This document shows, piece by piece, positions 5,304 to 28,766 of a stretch of 45,507 nt of DNA. The notes under the pieces are model-generated. The model was given only the letters and a program-made list of their open reading frames with translations, ran no database searches and had not been told where the DNA came from. The translations under genes and the position numbers were made by a program. The DNA lies in the NCBI GenBank assembly GCA_013153145.1, contig JAADEY010000004.1, forward strand, positions 1 through 45,507. Reading direction: 5' to 3'. Position 1 is the first letter of the stretch, and every line of letters begins with the position of its first letter. This stretch comes from Thermoproteota archaeon. GTDB taxonomy: Archaea > Thermoproteota > Thermoprotei_A > Sulfolobales > Pyrodictiaceae.

Positions 5304-6001
5304 AGCTGTTCCTGGCACCATTCCCGGTGCTGGCTTGATAGTATCTTCCTTAAATCGGTTATTTCTTTCCTCATTATGGTTGTTATTGCTAGTGCTGCTA
5401 GGTCTAGTAGTTTCTCTACTCTTCTTGCTATGACTGTGTCTGATGATGCTACTACTGTGTTTTTTCCGCGTCTTGATCTGAGGATTATTGTTGTGTCTGC
5501 CTTCTTTGAGGTTGCTGTTATGGCCCATGGGATTAGTTGTCTTATTTTTGCTGCTGTCTGGCCGGAGTGGGGTATTGCTGAGTCTATGACTATTATTGTC
5601 TTGTGTGGGTTGAGCCTCTTGATTGCCTCTGCTAGTATCCTGTATACTGTTGTGTCTCTTGGTGTTGGCTTTGTTGCTCCTAGTGCTGAGTCTCTTGTTA
5701 GGCCGTCTGTGCATCTTGCCACTAGGTGGTGGGTTTCCATGAGTGTTGCCTTGATTGGTGAGGCTTGGTTTGGTAGGTCTATGATTAGTGTCTTTCCGGC
5801 TGCTTCTCGTGGCTCTATGATCTTCCTTAGTGTCTCCTTTGACTCTGTTGGTGGGTGGATGCAGCGTTTTAGGAAGGCTTTCTCCTCGGCTGTGAGCTTG
5901 TAGGTTGCTGCTAGTAGTGCTAGTATCCTGTCCCTGTGGCGGTGGCCTCTGGCGAGGAGGGTGTAGTAGTCGTAGGCTGCTGCTTCTAGTTCTCTGCGCA
6001 T
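5294..6001 (-). CDS. DUF434 (DUF5616) conserved archaeal protein
   Basis: 235 aa from an ATG at 6001, preceded by GGAGGAG about 10 nt away. It overlaps the 3' end of alaS by 16 nt, so it is probably translationally coupled. The helical N-terminus (ELEAAAYDYYTLLARGHR) leads into KTLIIDLPNQ and TIIVIDSAIPHSGQ, the alternating strand-helix pattern of DUF434 with conserved acidic residues (a nuclease-like appearance, function not established). The open frame continues upstream inside alaS, but that part is a shadow. The stop codon lies inside the tRNA-Arg acceptor region. The coding strand is very A/C-rich. Confidence 0.75.
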   Translation of the reverse strand: MRRELEAAAYDYYTLLARGHRHRDRILALLAATYKLTAEEKAFLKRCIHPPTESKETLRKIIEPREAAGKTLIIDLPNQASPIKATLMETHHLVARCTDGLTRDSALGATKPTPRDTTVYRILAEAIKRLNPHKTIIVIDSAIPHSGQTAAKIRQLIPWAITATSKKADTTIILRSRRGKNTVVASSDTVIARRVEKLLDLAALAITTIMRKEITDLRKILSSQHREWCQEQLGP

Positions 6002-8712
6002 TGTTTCTCTAGCTCCTCCTTGAAGGCCTTGATTATTTCTTCTGGCTGTCCCTCTGCTACTCCGGTTATGTGGTTTGGTTTTCCTCCTGCCTTCACTCCC
6101 TTGCTGCGTAGGTTTCTTGCTGCTTTTGCCAGGTCTAGTTTTGTTGTTGATGCTTCGATGTAGTATTTGCCGTTTAGTGGTGTTAGGATTACTGCTGTTT
6201 TGTCGCCGGGTTTCTCTGATAGTTTTAGTGAGATTAGGCGGGCTAGCTCCCTGTCGCCTAGTGGGAGTATTGTGGTGTAGAGTTTTGCTCCGCAGAGTGT
6301 CTCGGCCTTCTCCTCCATCTCTCTTATGATGTGTTCTGCTAGGAGGCTTTGTAGCCTCGCCGTCTTCTTCTTGGCTTCTTCTAGCTGCTTCTTGAGCTTC
6401 TCTATTCTTGCTGGGAGCTCCTCTATGCCTGCTCCTAGTCTTGATGCTGCGTCGTGTAGTATGTCTTCTAGCTTGGTGGCTGTCTTGGCTGTCTGTGTTG
6501 CGGCTGTTATCTCTAGCCTCACTACTCCGTCCTGTATCCTCTCGGTGTTGATTATCTTTATTGCCCCTACCTCGCCTGTGTTGGCTACGTGGGTTCCGTA
6601 GCATGCCTCGGTGTCTACGCCGGGTATCTCTACTATCCTTATCCACCTGCTTAGGGGTGGTGGTCCTCCCTGGTATAGTGTGAAGCCATACTTCTCCTCT
6701 GCTGCGTTCCTGTCCATCATCATTGTCTTCACGGGTATTCTCTCATCGATTATCCTGTTGGCCTCCTCCTCTATCCTTTTGACTAGGTCTCTTGTTAGTG
6801 GCTTGTGGTGTGTTATGTCTAGCCTTGCCTTCTCCGGTGTCTTCTCTGCGCCTGCCTGCCATACGTGGTTGCCGAGTATGCGTCTGGCTGCTGCTAGTAG
6901 TATGTGGACTGCTGTGTGGTGTCTCATTAGCTTGTATCTCCTCTCCCAGTCTATCTCTAGTGTTGCCTTCTCGCATGGTTTGAACGGCTTGTCGAGCACG
7001 TGTACTACTACGTCCTCGTGCTTGTAGACTGCCTTGACGCGGTACTTCTCGCCGCAGGCCCTTATCTCGCCGGTGTCGTGTAGCTGGCCGCCGCCGAGGG
7101 GGTAGAAGATTGTCTGGTCGAGGACTAGGAGGTTGCCGTGCCATGCGAGTGGCTTTGCCTCCGCCCTCCTCGTGTAGGGCTCTGCATGGTATAGTGGCTT
7201 GGTGGGCTTGCCAACCTTCTCTGCTAGCTCTACGACTTCTCTCGGCTTCTTCTCCTCGGGTGGCTTTGCCAGCCTTGTCGGCGCCTGGTGCCGTTTCGCG
7301 AGCTCTGCGTAGAAGTTTGGCGGGACCTCTACCTTTACGCCGTGTTTGGCTGCGATCTCTGCTACTAGGTCTGGTGGTGCTCCGTGGGAGTCGTAGAGCT
7401 GTAGTAGGTCCTCTAGTGTTATCTTCTTCCTGCGTCTCAGGAGTCTCTCGACGAGTCTCGCCGCCCTAGCTATCGTCTTCCTGTACCTCTCCTCCTCGGT
7501 GAGCACTGCGTCTATTATGTAGTCCTTGTTCCGTGTGAGTTGGGGGTAGTCCTGGCTCCAGTAGTCTATCTGTAGCCTTACCAGGTCTGCTGCGTCCACC
7601 GCCGCGCCCAGCCTGTCCAGTATCCTGAATATCCTCCTGGCGACGAGTCTTGCTAGGTAGCCCTCCCCGGTGTTTGAGGGTACTATGCCGTCTCCGAGCA
7701 TTAGTGCGAGTGTCCTCGTGTAGTCCAGGGCCCTGTAGACGTCCCAGACCCTCCTCATCAACGCCTCTACCTTCTCTACGGGGTTGCCGGTCTCCCTCGC
7801 CATCGTCTCTATGTAGCGCTTCACGGTCTCCGGGTCGTCTGGGTCTATGTTGCCGGCGTCCCTGGCCGCTACCCATAGTATGTCTTCGGGGGGCTCCTCG
7901 ACCCCTAGTATGTCGTGGAACCGGTGGAGGAGTGGGCCGTAGATCGCGTGGAGTGCTGTTGGCTTCTTGGAGAGCATCCATGTTATCCTCTCTATCCCGT
8001 AGCCGGTGTCTACTATCTTGATTGGCTGCTCCTCGTAGCCCCCGTCCACCACCCTATACTTCATGAAGACTAGTGTTGCCAGCTCCAGGCCTCCCACGGT
8101 TACCTCGAAGCATGGGCCTGCGTTTCCGCCGCCCTCCCACCAGGACTCCTTGAACACTATCTCCTCTGGTGGTATGCCGAGCTCCTTTGTGAAGAACTCG
8201 TACGCGTAGCGGACGGTCTCCTCCTTCCAGTAGACCTTCCTGTCTGGGTAGTTGAAGGCGTGGTGGCCGCCCATCTCGAAGCTTGTGAGGTGGCGGCCGA
8301 GGGTTATGCCGACGTTGTCTATGTCTTCGAGCCTTATGGAGGGCTGTACTATGACTAGGGGGTTTGCTGGTGGTGGTACCCTGCCGCTTGTGACGTGGGG
8401 CTGGAAGACGATTATGCTTGCAATGGTTAGGTAGAGGTCCCTCCTCCACCTAGCCACTACGGGCCTGGGGGGTATGGGTTTGTGTCCATGCCTCCTGAAG
8501 AACTCCTTGAAGAGGCTCCTCGTCTCACGCACGCTTAGGGGTGGCTTGGAGCGGTCGACCTCCCAGAACCGGTACCTGGTGCATGGGGCGTCGTTGCAGG
8601 TGTCGCGGGGGGTCTTGCTCCAGAAGTATGAGCCGCAGACCCTGCACCTCCTCCTCTCGAAGCCCTCCTCCGCGAAGAACCGGAGACGGTACTCGCTCTC
8701 GGGCACGGACAC
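5986..8712 (-). CDS. alaS: Alanyl-tRNA synthetase
   Basis: Charges tRNA-Ala; 908 aa, normal for the archaeal type. The N-terminal Zn-like CRVCGSYF and CNDAPC motif typical of archaeal AlaS precedes the class II catalytic core. The editing domain shows HHTAVHI (HxxxH) and CYGTHV (CxxxH) zinc ligands near 600-715. A coiled coil (about 755-795) and a C-terminal DHHA1-like domain follow. GTG start at 8712 with a TATA-like element about 40 nt upstream. It lies downstream of L10, as in other Crenarchaeota, but without L12 between them. Codon use drifts from G/C-ending at the 5' end to A/C-rich at the 3' end. Confidence 0.97.
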   Translation of the reverse strand: MSVPESEYRLRFFAEEGFERRRCRVCGSYFWSKTPRDTCNDAPCTRYRFWEVDRSKPPLSVRETRSLFKEFFRRHGHKPIPPRPVVARWRRDLYLTIASIIVFQPHVTSGRVPPPANPLVIVQPSIRLEDIDNVGITLGRHLTSFEMGGHHAFNYPDRKVYWKEETVRYAYEFFTKELGIPPEEIVFKESWWEGGGNAGPCFEVTVGGLELATLVFMKYRVVDGGYEEQPIKIVDTGYGIERITWMLSKKPTALHAIYGPLLHRFHDILGVEEPPEDILWVAARDAGNIDPDDPETVKRYIETMARETGNPVEKVEALMRRVWDVYRALDYTRTLALMLGDGIVPSNTGEGYLARLVARRIFRILDRLGAAVDAADLVRLQIDYWSQDYPQLTRNKDYIIDAVLTEEERYRKTIARAARLVERLLRRRKKITLEDLLQLYDSHGAPPDLVAEIAAKHGVKVEVPPNFYAELAKRHQAPTRLAKPPEEKKPREVVELAEKVGKPTKPLYHAEPYTRRAEAKPLAWHGNLLVLDQTIFYPLGGGQLHDTGEIRACGEKYRVKAVYKHEDVVVHVLDKPFKPCEKATLEIDWERRYKLMRHHTAVHILLAAARRILGNHVWQAGAEKTPEKARLDITHHKPLTRDLVKRIEEEANRIIDERIPVKTMMMDRNAAEEKYGFTLYQGGPPPLSRWIRIVEIPGVDTEACYGTHVANTGEVGAIKIINTERIQDGVVRLEITAATQTAKTATKLEDILHDAASRLGAGIEELPARIEKLKKQLEEAKKKTARLQSLLAEHIIREMEEKAETLCGAKLYTTILPLGDRELARLISLKLSEKPGDKTAVILTPLNGKYYIEASTTKLDLAKAARNLRSKGVKAGGKPNHITGVAEGQPEEIIKAFKEELEKQCAEN

Positions 8713-17852: not shown

Positions 17853-18554
17853 TTAGAGGAATGTTGTTAGGTCTGTTGGGAGTCTTCCTTCTCTTAGTTG
17901 TTGTGGTGTTATGTTTCCGTGGTCTAGTTGTCTTGCTGCGATTCGTGAGTAGTGGTCTGCGTGGTATATTGGTATTGGTAGGTAGTGGCGTGGGTGCAGG
18001 AGTTGTTTGACTATCTCGACTGCGTGTTGTAGGCTTATGTATGCTCCCTGGCTTATGTAGAGGTCTTTTCCTCTGTGGGTTATTATTACTGCTACTATTT
18101 CGCCGTGGTGTTCGAGTACTCTTGTGCCGTTTACTATTTTCTCTCTGCCGGTGAGCCTTGATTTTGCTACTCCTATTGTTGGTTTCTTGACTGCCATCCC
18201 TATGTGTGTCGCTATTCCTGTTCTGCGTGGGTGGGAGAGGCCGTGGCCGTCTATTAGGAGGATGTCGCAGGGTGTGTTTAGTCTCCTGTATGCTGTGTAG
18301 AAGAGGGGTGCTTCACGGAAGGCTAGGAGTCCGGGTATGTATTTGAGGGGTGCTTCTCCTATGCTGTATGCGACTTCGATTAGTTCCCCGTCTTGTCTGC
18401 ATGCTATTGCTGCTGCTACTCCCCCGTATTTGCGTGAGTATGCTGCGTCTATTGCGCAGTATGTGTTTGGTTTCTTTGGGGCCTTGTCTGTCGTGTCTAT
18501 CTTTTCGGCTATCTTCCTCTGTAGTTTTATGAGTCTCCTTATGCTTATCTCCAT
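17853..18554 (-). CDS. nfi: Endonuclease V (deoxyinosine 3'-endonuclease)
   Basis: Cleaves the second phosphodiester 3' of deoxyinosine, repairing heat-driven adenine deamination; 233 aa. Catalytic and wedge elements visible: AIDAAYS (first Asp), EAPLKYIPGLLAFREAP, LLIDGHGLSHPR (second Asp) and IGVAKSRLTG. It starts 9 nt after the inactive proteasome beta gene and is probably co-transcribed. The coding strand is A/C-rich and G-poor. The 192-nt stretch from its stop to tRNA-Glu holds nothing recognisable. Confidence 0.95.
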   Translation of the reverse strand: MEISIRRLIKLQRKIAEKIDTTDKAPKKPNTYCAIDAAYSRKYGGVAAAIACRQDGELIEVAYSIGEAPLKYIPGLLAFREAPLFYTAYRRLNTPCDILLIDGHGLSHPRRTGIATHIGMAVKKPTIGVAKSRLTGREKIVNGTRVLEHHGEIVAVIITHRGKDLYISQGAYISLQHAVEIVKQLLHPRHYLPIPIYHADHYSRIAARQLDHGNITPQQLREGRLPTDLTTFL

Positions 18555-18563
18555 GGGTGGTCA

Positions 18564-19190
18564 CTAGAGCTGTATTATTCTGGACTCCTCGTGTACTTCT
18601 ATCTTCCCTGGTGCTTTGACTCTGAAGGCTAGTATGTCTATGCCGTCGCCAGATATGGGGTCTCTTTCTAGGGCTGCCTTCATTGCCCTTAGTACTAGGT
18701 TGTATGCTTTCTCGTACTCTAGTTGCTTGTTGTATTCTGCCTCGAGGACGCCTACTGCTATGGGTGCGCCGGAGCCTAGGGCTGCGTAGTCGTCCTCTAT
18801 TAGTGAGCCTAGTGCGTCCATGACGTAGAGCCTCGGCTTGTTGTCGTGGTCTATTCCGCCTACGAGCGTCTCTGATATGAATGGGAAGATTTTGTTCTCG
18901 TAGAGTATTGCTGCGAGTAGTCTTGCTGCTGTCTTTACGGTCATGGGTTTTCTTGTGACGAGCTCGTAGTATTTTATGTTTGCATGCATTAGCTTGCTTA
19001 TGGCCTGCATGTCTGCGAACAGGCCTGCGCAGGCTATGCCTATCCTATCCGTTATCTTGAAGACCTTCTTGCCGGCCTTGCTCATTACGAAGCCGCTGTA
19101 TGATACCCTCTTCTCTGAGGCGAGTATGACGTAGTCGGGGCCCCGGACCCCGATCGTGGTTGCGCCGATGCCGTAGTCCTGGTATGACAT
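18564..19190 (-). CDS. psmB: Proteasome beta subunit, predicted inactive
   Basis: Beta-type 20S subunit, 208 aa; it lacks the alpha-type N-terminal helix and keeps the beta signature LGSGAPIAVGVLEAEY. Aligned with active subunits, catalytic position 1 is Ala10 (YGIGATTIGV), position 17 is Glu26 (ASEKR) instead of Asp, while Lys33 is kept (Lys42). It has no processing Gly-Thr. It should therefore fill a ring position without cleaving peptides, as reported for the inactive beta of Sulfolobus. A TTTATA box and a GAGGAAGAGGG binding site precede the ATG. Endonuclease V follows in the same operon. Confidence 0.92.
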   Translation of the reverse strand: MSYQDYGIGATTIGVRGPDYVILASEKRVSYSGFVMSKAGKKVFKITDRIGIACAGLFADMQAISKLMHANIKYYELVTRKPMTVKTAARLLAAILYENKIFPFISETLVGGIDHDNKPRLYVMDALGSLIEDDYAALGSGAPIAVGVLEAEYNKQLEYEKAYNLVLRAMKAALERDPISGDGIDILAFRVKAPGKIEVHEESRIIQL

Positions 19191-19371: not shown

Positions 19372-19902
19372 ATGATGCTCGCTGTCATAGGGAGGAGGAA
19401 CCGCTGCCCGGTCTGTGGTTCACGTAGCCTCGTGTTGACGAGGGAGGGGCTTGTATGCAGGGGCTGCGGCCTAGTGCTTGAGGACACCGTCTTCGCGCTC
19501 GATACTCCCTGGAGTGGCGTTGAGGAGGAGAGGGTTGCAGGGAGGGGTGGGAGGTATGAGGGCATGAGGGTATCATCTGCAGTCACTAGGCTTGCCAGGG
19601 CAGCTGGGGTTAGGGGTGTTGAGCTTGCATCTAAGCTCTCGAGGGAGCTCGTGACCCTAATAGACATGGATCCCGAAGGCGCGAAGGATGTGGCCTCGAA
19701 TGACTGCCTCCGTAAACTCATGCGCCGCCGCCGTAGGAGGCCAGGGGAGGTTGCGGCAATCCTCTACACCGTGATGAGCATGAGGAGGCATGGCGCTCCG
19801 CCACTGCCCTCACTGCTTGCATCCATGTACTCTCTCCCGAGGAGGAAGGCGAAGCGGATAATCCATGCCGTGAGGATATGCATGGAGGGCGGCGACATAT
19901 AG
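19372..19902 (+). CDS. Truncated TFB-like transcription factor (zinc ribbon plus one cyclin-like repeat)
   Basis: 176 aa, against about 300 for full TFB. The zinc ribbon has Cys12, Cys15, Cys29 and Cys32 (CPVC ... CRGCGLVLED). The linker (about 40-75) lacks a recognisable B-finger. The rest resembles a single cyclin fold: RPGEVAAILYTVMSMRR, then PSLLASMYSLPRRKAKRII, matching the last helices of a TFB repeat. It could bind RNA polymerase through the ribbon but lacks one of the two DNA-contacting repeats, so it may be a regulator like Sulfolobus TFB3. Divergent from the inactive proteasome beta gene; no strong TATA seen upstream. Confidence 0.75.
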   Translation: MMLAVIGRRNRCPVCGSRSLVLTREGLVCRGCGLVLEDTVFALDTPWSGVEEERVAGRGGRYEGMRVSSAVTRLARAAGVRGVELASKLSRELVTLIDMDPEGAKDVASNDCLRKLMRRRRRRPGEVAAILYTVMSMRRHGAPPLPSLLASMYSLPRRKAKRIIHAVRICMEGGDI

Positions 19903-26042: not shown

Positions 26043-26687
26043 GTGCAGAGACCATGGCATCCTGCCAGAGCTAGGCCGCCAGTCCTAAAGGGCACCACGA
26101 CGGTCGGCCTACGCCTAAGGAACCACGTGGTGCTCGGCGCCGATAGGAGGGCCACGGCGGGCTACTATGTCGCCCACAAGCACGTGAAGAAGATAGTGAA
26201 GCTCACCGACTACATGGCAATGACGACGGCAGGCCTTGTGGCGGATGCACAGGTGCTGGCCGAGTGGGTTAGGACGAGGGCACGGCTATACGAGATGGAG
26301 ACCAGGAAGAGGATGCCCGTATCCGTAGCCGCAAACCTGCTAGCCTCAATACTCCTCACGAGCAGGAGGCAGTACTTCATGCCCTACTTCGTCCAGCTCA
26401 TCCTCGGGGGCTATGATACAGCCCCCAGGCTCTACAGCCTAGACCTATACGGGACGATAACCGAGGAGAGGTACATAGCGACTGGATCCGGCTCCGTGAC
26501 CGCGATAGGCCTCATAGAGGACGAGTACGACGAGAACATGCCCGTCGAGAAGGCTGTTGACCTCGTCCGCAGAGCCATACTCTCATCCATAAGGAGGGAC
26601 GCCTTCACGGGCAACGGGATAGACGTCGTAGTCATAGGCCCGAAGGGCATCATAGAGAAGAGCTTCGAGGTTAAAGCAAAGTTTTAG
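26043..26687 (+). CDS. psmB: Proteasome beta subunit, active
   Basis: Proteolytic 20S subunit, 214 aa. A 17-residue propeptide ends in Lys-Gly and the processed Thr18 becomes Thr1 (KG|TTTVG). Asp34 is Asp17 (GADRRAT) and Lys50 is Lys33, so the catalytic triad is complete. GSGSVTAIGLIEDEY is the beta-type signature. GTG start. A strong hairpin follows its stop. It lies upstream of FttA. Contrast with the beta-like subunit at 18564, which lacks Thr1. Confidence 0.96.
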   Translation: MQRPWHPARARPPVLKGTTTVGLRLRNHVVLGADRRATAGYYVAHKHVKKIVKLTDYMAMTTAGLVADAQVLAEWVRTRARLYEMETRKRMPVSVAANLLASILLTSRRQYFMPYFVQLILGGYDTAPRLYSLDLYGTITEERYIATGSGSVTAIGLIEDEYDENMPVEKAVDLVRRAILSSIRRDAFTGNGIDVVVIGPKGIIEKSFEVKAKF

Positions 26688-26822: not shown

Positions 26823-28766
26823 GTGTACAAGCGTAGCAATACTAGAGTGATAGCACTGACGATAATGAAGTACATGCCGCGCGATGCCGGGATAACGAGG
26901 ATAGAGTTTGAGGGGCCCGAGATAGCGATATACGTGAAGAACCCAGCCGTGATAGTCAACCAGCCCGAGATAGTGAGGAAGATAGCAAAGGAGCTCAAGA
27001 AGAGGATAGTCATAAGGACAGACCCCTCAATAAGGCTAGACAAGAAAGAGACGAAGAAAAGGATACTGGAGCTCGTGCCGAAGGAGGCAGGCATAGACGA
27101 GAACAACATACTCTTCGACGACGTCCTAGGAGAAGTGATAGTCAAGGCTAAGAAGGTCGGCCTAGTATACGGCAAGGGTAGATCGATCTACAACCGCATA
27201 CTCATAGAGACTGGCTGGAGGCTAAACGTCGTAAGGAGGGTTGACAACGAGCCGCAGATACTACGCACAGTGATAGGATACCTCCTCAGCAAGAGCAGCT
27301 ACCGGCTAAACGTGCTCCGCTCAGTCGGCGAGCGCATACACCGCGGAGTAGTGTTCGAGAACAGGTATGTGAGGATAACTGCACTCGGAGGCTTCATGGA
27401 GGTAGGGAGGTCGGCGATCCTCGTCGAGACGAGCGAGAGCAAGATACTCCTAGACGTAGGCATAAACCCCGCCGCGATAGGCTCATACAACATGTACCCC
27501 CGCCTAGACATAGATAGCCTCAAGATAGAGGAGCTGGACGCAGTCATAGTCACACATGCACACCTAGACCACATGGGGCTCGTACCCTACCTCTTCAAGT
27601 ACGGATACCGCGGCCCCGTATACGTGACCAAGCCGACCAGGGACTTAATGATACTGTCACAGACAGACCTCCTAAACATACTGCAGGCGAGCGGGAAGAG
27701 GCTCCCCTATGACCAGCACCAGATAAAGACCATGGTGCTCCACACCATACCCCTAGACTACGGCGAGGTCACCGACATAGCGCCGGACGTGAAGCTCACA
27801 TTCTTCAAGGCCGGCCACATCCTCGGCTCAGCCATGGTACACCTCCACATAGGCGACGGGCTCCACAACATAGTATACACCGGCGACTTCAAGTACGGGA
27901 GGACACGCCTCCTAGACAAGGCCGACGACACGTTCCCAAGGGTTGAGACCCTCATAATGGAGAGCACCTACGGGAACACCGAGCAGAAGAGGAGGGCCGA
28001 GGCAGAGTTCGACCTACTGAGCATAATAAGCGAGACGATAAACAGTGGCGGGAAGGTGCTCATACCGGTACTAGCAGTTGGCAGGGCGCAGGAGATACTC
28101 CTAGTCATAGCAGACGCTATAAGGAAGAAGATACTCCCCGAGGTACACGTCTACATAGACGGCATGATAGACGCCGTGACAGCCATCCACCTCCTATACC
28201 CGGAGCTGCTCTCAACACACCTGCGTGAACGCATCTTCCGCGGAGAGAACCCCTTCGACGCACCATTCATAGCGAAGGTGAAGAGCAGGAGCGAGAGGGA
28301 GAGCATAGCGAAGGGCCCCGAGCCATGCATAATCCTGGCTACATCCGGTATGCTCCAGGGAGGGCCTTCAGTAGAGTACCTCTACTACCTCGCGCCAGAC
28401 CCGAAGAACACACTGATATTCGTCAGCTACCAGGTCAAGGGCACCCTCGGCAGACAGATAAAGGATGGGGCCAGAGACATCTCCCTCGTGAGCCCGGAGG
28501 GCAGGCTCGAGCTTGTCAAGGTGAGGATGAAGGTTAGGAGCGTTGAAGGCTTCTCCGGCCACTCCGATAGGAGGCAGCTGCTAGCATTCCTGGCGAACAT
28601 AAAGCCCAAGCCTAGGAGGATAATACTGAACCACGGAGAGCCAGCGGCCATAAAGTCGCTTGCAAACACGATTAGGAGGAGGGCACAGCACCTAGGCCTA
28701 CCGGCGGGCGTCGAGGTGTATACTCCAAGCATACTCGACAGCATAAGGGTCGCTGGTGTCGCCTAG
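26823..28766 (+). CDS. fttA: FttA/aCPSF1, beta-CASP ribonuclease and transcription termination factor
   Basis: Cleaves nascent RNA and ends transcription; 647 aa. KH-type RNA-binding domains fill about 1-150. The metallo-beta-lactamase core has ITALGGFMEVGRSA and THAHLDHMG (HxHxDH, about 244-252), then GHILGSAMVHL and VYTGDFKYG. The beta-CASP part has ESTYG, LIPVLAVGRAQE, and later FSGHSDRRQLL and LNHGE. GTG start at 26823 with GGTGG 7 nt upstream. Located between psmB and the MCT-1-like gene. Confidence 0.97.
   Translation: MYKRSNTRVIALTIMKYMPRDAGITRIEFEGPEIAIYVKNPAVIVNQPEIVRKIAKELKKRIVIRTDPSIRLDKKETKKRILELVPKEAGIDENNILFDDVLGEVIVKAKKVGLVYGKGRSIYNRILIETGWRLNVVRRVDNEPQILRTVIGYLLSKSSYRLNVLRSVGERIHRGVVFENRYVRITALGGFMEVGRSAILVETSESKILLDVGINPAAIGSYNMYPRLDIDSLKIEELDAVIVTHAHLDHMGLVPYLFKYGYRGPVYVTKPTRDLMILSQTDLLNILQASGKRLPYDQHQIKTMVLHTIPLDYGEVTDIAPDVKLTFFKAGHILGSAMVHLHIGDGLHNIVYTGDFKYGRTRLLDKADDTFPRVETLIMESTYGNTEQKRRAEAEFDLLSIISETINSGGKVLIPVLAVGRAQEILLVIADAIRKKILPEVHVYIDGMIDAVTAIHLLYPELLSTHLRERIFRGENPFDAPFIAKVKSRSERESIAKGPEPCIILATSGMLQGGPSVEYLYYLAPDPKNTLIFVSYQVKGTLGRQIKDGARDISLVSPEGRLELVKVRMKVRSVEGFSGHSDRRQLLAFLANIKPKPRRIILNHGEPAAIKSLANTIRRRAQHLGLPAGVEVYTPSILDSIRVAGVA

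Follow-up and report, generated by a model that had tools for sequence, protein, structure and literature searches.

Does a proteasome β-subunit that has lost its catalytic threonine still belong to a working 20S particle, and in what capacity? This question is raised by a gene at 18564-19190 in the window (the whole stretch of 45,507 nucleotides of a Thermoproteota archaeon of the Pyrodictiaceae that was analysed). In the original prediction it was read as an inactive β-subunit with Ala at position 1 and Glu at position 17, which would tune proteolysis in a ring mixed with an active β-subunit encoded nearby.

Identity of the gene product and its active site

The gene is real, although its coding strand had to be corrected to minus (Table 1). 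Its product, further referred to as Ala1 β, has 208 amino acids when the open reading frame is read from the ATG at 19188-19190. It scored 227.3 bits against the archaeal proteasome beta family TIGR03634, which is above the curated cut-off of 224, and matched PF00227 as well. When all PDB chains were searched by sequence, the best one was 6z46_H (E 1.2e-58), from the Sulfolobus acidocaldarius 20S proteasome (Saci0613/Saci0662), which consists of α and an inert β. The AlphaFold2 model of Ala1 β (pLDDT 87.8, pTM 0.88) showed the Ntn-hydrolase β fold with helices H1-H4, and 6z46 was also its top match in Foldseek (TM 0.80/0.90).

In a gapless alignment with the β-subunit of Thermoplasma acidophilum (1pma), Ala10 of Ala1 β coincided with Thr1 and Glu26 with Glu17. 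The alanine follows a conserved glycine at position -1, and no threonine was found in register at the true position 1, as had been predicted. A Thr1 hidden by a wrongly set start or register was ruled out, since direct reading of the frame revealed no in-frame start upstream of 19190 and the alignment is gapless. At positions 1, 17, 33, 129, 166 and 169 Ala1 β has A, E, K, S, D and S, compared with T, E, K, S, D and S in Thermoplasma β and T, D, K, S, D and T in the second β-subunit of the window. Of the residues expected in a catalytic β-subunit, Lys33 and Asp/Glu17 (here Glu17) are thus present and the Thr1 nucleophile is absent. Judged from these residues, the nucleophile at position 1 is the sole loss from the site. 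The Glu17 that had been counted as a second inactivating change is indeed there, but it is no sign of inactivity, because the active Thermoplasma β has it too and the proteasome triad is described as Thr1, Lys33 and Asp or Glu17 (PMC4792962).

A proteasome of the Sulfolobus type also contains a Thr1 β encoded by the same genome. The gene at 26043-26687, 7 kb from that of Ala1 β, does encode such a subunit with the complete Thr1/Asp17/Lys33 set that had been assigned to it. A gene for the α-subunit was not found in this genome, the assembly of which is only 78.8% complete; the full subunit set was therefore deduced from relatives, as three proteasome genes were present in nearly all near-complete genomes of the order.

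Table 1. Features of the window around the two β-subunit genes
Feature	Position	Strand	Basis
Endonuclease V (nfi), following Ala1 β after 9 bp	17853..18554	minus	PF04493, E 1e-47
Ala1 β (P0001), non-catalytic proteasome β, Saci0662 orthologue	18564..19190	minus	TIGR03634/PF00227; 6z46_H; AF2
Lys33 of Ala1 β, retained	19065..19067	minus	invariant in 188/188 non-Thr1 β
Glu at mature position 17 of Ala1 β, catalysis-compatible	19113..19115	minus	as in Thermoplasma β
Ala at mature position 1 of Ala1 β, codon GCA	19161..19163	minus	alignment to 1pma; DNA read; column tally
Short TFIIB-type zinc ribbon protein	19372..19902	plus	PF08271
Thr1 β (P0002), catalytic proteasome β; Asp17, Lys33	26043..26687	plus	TIGR03634/PF00227; site residues
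Thr1 codon of Thr1 β	26094..26096	plus	
FttA/aCPSF1 transcription termination ribonuclease, downstream of Thr1 β	26823..28766	plus	TIGR03675, 913 bits; PF17214 KH_TffA

Distribution and origin of the β-subunits without Thr1

Whole genomes were searched with the Ala1 β protein and position 1 was read in every β-subunit found. This yielded 297 distinct sequences, 109 with Thr1 and 188 without it (Ala in 173, Gly in 13 and Ser in 2), tallies that represent related sequences and not independent events. All 188 non-Thr1 sequences were nearer to Ala1 β than to the Thr1 β of the window; the reverse was true for 106 of the 109 others. Every one of the 69 genomes of the same order had a non-Thr1 β, and in 63 of these a Thr1 β was found as well. 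Elsewhere in the phylum a non-Thr1 β was present in 42 of 47 families, the Thr1 β-subunits of which were only partly sampled. The five families in which none was found (f22, f25, f29, f40 and f54) are represented mostly by incomplete genomes, with fragments at contig edges in f40, so that the absence there may be only apparent. One genome that is 92% complete (G261; loci L292 and L366) has two Thr1 β-subunits and no non-Thr1 β; it is possibly incomplete and possibly a real exception. Outside the phylum, Ala1 β-subunits occurred in Asgard metagenome-assembled genomes (MAGs) under the labels Njord-, Jord-, Borr- and Sigynarchaeota, with a Thr1 β in the same genome for each of these four labels; in one further Jordarchaeum MAG the Ala1 β alone was detected. 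At L330 and L331 (Jordarchaeia and Sigynarchaeota MAGs) the Thr1 β beside the Ala1 β has Glu17, not Asp17.

Positions 1 and 17 were left out when a maximum-likelihood tree of 82 representatives was calculated, for which α-subunits served as the outgroup. In this tree the β-subunits without Thr1 formed one clade (SH-aLRT 99; ultrafast bootstrap 100, a value not fully settled), and the S. acidocaldarius sequence (L059) fell inside it, apart from the Thr1 β-subunits. Position 1 varies within the clade between Ala, Gly and Ser, and is never Thr. Tree and genome survey together show that the non-Thr1 β had one ancient origin and that genomes carry one non-Thr1 β and one Thr1 β. Such an inert and active pair is already known from Sulfolobus; its breadth and the single origin are what is added here. 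A statement that an inert β occurs phylum-wide was not found in the literature searched, which was covered in part, so earlier reports may exist.

Among 28 readable non-Thr1 β-subunits of the Sulfolobaceae, 18 had Ala, 10 Ser and none Thr at position 1. Ser1 was combined with Val17 at L337 and L339-L344, and L338, of the same genus, has Ala1/Val17. At L353, L360 and L361 the combination was Ser1/Glu17/Lys33. These latter subunits could conceivably have some activity, because the yeast β5-T1S mutant retains autolysis and activity (PMC4792962).

Three genomes of other families of the phylum encode an extra pair of adjacent genes, one for a divergent α-like protein and one for a Thr1/Asp17/Lys33 β [L369:6213-7500(-), L370:about 5860-7153(+) and L371:5633-6901(-)]. 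The extra β of L369 and L371 begins with Met-Thr-Thr-Ile and has no propeptide. The pair looks like a second proteasome-type complex.

Gene order

The coupling of the inactive gene to endonuclease V and of the active gene to FttA, which had been noticed in the window, is present and was conserved across relatives. An endonuclease V frame lay at most 1.5 kb from a non-Thr1 β at 66 loci, always downstream and on the same strand, and FttA was never within 1.5 kb among the non-Thr1 β loci. Where enough flanking sequence was available, FttA was found within 1.5 kb of the Thr1 β at 75 of 92 loci, nearly always downstream and on the same strand. Endonuclease V was a neighbour of the non-Thr1 β only, and FttA of the Thr1 β only. 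At L163 and L164, from the taxonomic family to which the window belongs, the order beta(Ala1)-EndoV-beta(Thr1)-FttA occupies a few kb of one strand. The association of endonuclease V and FttA with the two β genes is one of conserved gene order, co-orientation and synteny. The gene for a zinc ribbon protein (Table 1) lies about 180 bp upstream of Ala1 β on the opposite strand.

Conservation of the site without nucleophile

Lys33 was invariant in 188/188 non-Thr1 β-subunits, as were Asp166, Gly128, Gly130 and Gly170 in the 187/187 that reach these positions. Gly47 was also invariant, position 169 was Ser in 183/187 and position 129 was Ser or Thr in 186. Tyr22, Ser28 and Lys/Arg81 are among the conserved residues that are specific to the non-Thr1 clade. 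The invariance of Lys33, Asp166, Gly47, Gly128, Gly130 and Gly170 indicates that the non-Thr1 β is under strong constraint and is not decaying. Chance, a sequencing slip, an error in the MAG and lineage-specific decay were ruled out as sources of the Ala1 codon, as 188/188 relatives are without Thr1 and the site residues are invariant.

The simplest reason for their retention would be the packing of the site, given that in yeast the active site collapses in a K33A mutant (PMC4792962). In a purely structural site, catalysis would place no demand on Lys33 and Asp166, so that their strict conservation calls for another explanation. One such explanation is that the dead pocket still binds its own propeptide or a substrate peptide, which would keep Lys33, Asp166 and Ser169 conserved in a subunit devoid of a nucleophile. 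In yeast T1A mutants a propeptide remnant does occupy the substrate channel while the structure of the site is unaltered (PMC4792962). As packing may account for the same residues, we regard peptide binding as rather doubtful, though worth weighing.

Comparison with known proteasomes

Ala1 β is the orthologue of Saci0662, and the inactive Sulfolobus β invoked as a precedent was well chosen. The two proteins are about 49% identical and share the fold, the residues Ala1/Glu17/Lys33/Ser129/Asp166/Ser169, the clade and the occurrence of one inert and one Thr1 β per genome. The Sulfolobaceae differ in having Pro, not Gly, before position 1 and Ser1 in some relatives; moreover, endonuclease V was not detected beside their inert β. 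Thermoplasma β resembles Ala1 β in its gapless core and in Glu17, Lys33 and Ser129/Asp166/Ser169, but it has Thr1, is active and forms homoheptameric rings of a single β type. Yeast T1A mutants are like Ala1 β at position 1; they were made in the laboratory, whereas in Ala1 β the alanine is a stable natural state. Eukaryotic β3, β6 and β7 are, like Ala1 β, inert members of mixed rings. The β3 and β6 chains were among its best eukaryotic fold matches, while in a profile comparison catalytic β5 ranked first among the eukaryotic chains. As the two rankings disagree, direct descent of the eukaryotic inert β-subunits from the non-Thr1 clade is only a possibility.

Role of the Ala1 subunit

In S. 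acidocaldarius α (Saci0613) and Saci0662 together form a 28-mer without activity, and Saci0909, the Thr1 β, does not pair with α by itself; the three proteins combined give an active 28-mer in which Saci0909 is present at a lower ratio (Anjum et al., 2015; PMC4569737). Saci0662 was described in that study as seemingly inert and essential for the interaction with α. It is very probable that Ala1 β is likewise the structural, non-catalytic β-subunit of a hetero-β 20S proteasome to which the Thr1 β supplies the proteolytic sites. Its inertness, its part in assembly and the ring ratio are inferred from S. acidocaldarius. Together with α, Ala1 β would assemble most of the two inner rings, and the Thr1 β encoded at 26043 would be inserted among its copies. 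With Ala1 it should neither remove its own propeptide MSYQDYGIG nor attack a substrate, as yeast T1A mutants perform neither autolysis nor cleavage (PMC4792962). By analogy with these mutants the propeptide would be kept, unless a neighbouring active β trims it.

The mixed ring of the original prediction thus agrees with the Saci0613/0662/0909 reconstitution; the tuning role that it proposed does not, and a scaffold fits better. That Ala1 β is a minority modulator, the inert copies of which dilute active sites, would accord with the existence of both β-subunits, with the mixed rings formed in S. acidocaldarius and with a ring composition that could vary with conditions. In the reconstituted particle, however, the inert β is the majority subunit and is needed with α, whereas the active β is the one at low ratio (PMC4569737), and presence in all 69 genomes of the order suits an obligate part. 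We consider modulation unlikely. Because Saci0662 is needed for the α-β cylinder and is the more abundant β, Ala1 β is likely to be an obligate scaffold and not a tuning accessory.

Far less probable still is that Ala1 β is active after cleavage one residue further in, with Thr2 as the N-terminal nucleophile. Thr2 is invariant in 188/188 non-Thr1 β-subunits, and Anjum et al. stated a Thr equivalent to T1 for both Saci β-subunits (PMC4569737). Furthermore, the β chain of 6z46 aligns from Thr2: the β-subunit of genome G081 showed no visible difference from 6z46_H over 189 residues, and an Ala directly precedes the covered part. It seems from these sequences that the crystallized chain starts at Thr2 and that the deposited deltaN chain, which begins with x-TAIG, exposes this residue. 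Yet the Saci0662-deltaN construct was inactive with α (PMC4569737). Thr2 is also just as invariant in the Thr1 β-subunits, so that it carries no special signal, and it is off register, the spacing from position 1 to 17 and 33 being gapless.

Implications

The two-β arrangement of Sulfolobus is the rule across this archaeal phylum, with an inert subunit of one origin, and Thermoplasma with its single β is a poor stand-in for the proteasomes of Thermoproteota. A dead but strictly conserved site offers a good test of the non-catalytic roles of proteasome active-site residues, for which Ala, Gly and Ser at position 1 provide natural variants for comparison. Tentatively, it is possible that Thr1 was lost once, before Thermoproteota and some Asgard archaea diversified, that this gave rise to an obligate two-β proteasome and that the dead subunit has since kept the remainder of its site because this still functions, in holding the uncleaved propeptide or substrate peptides or in gating assembly. 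If true, differentiated inert and active β-subunits would predate eukaryotes.
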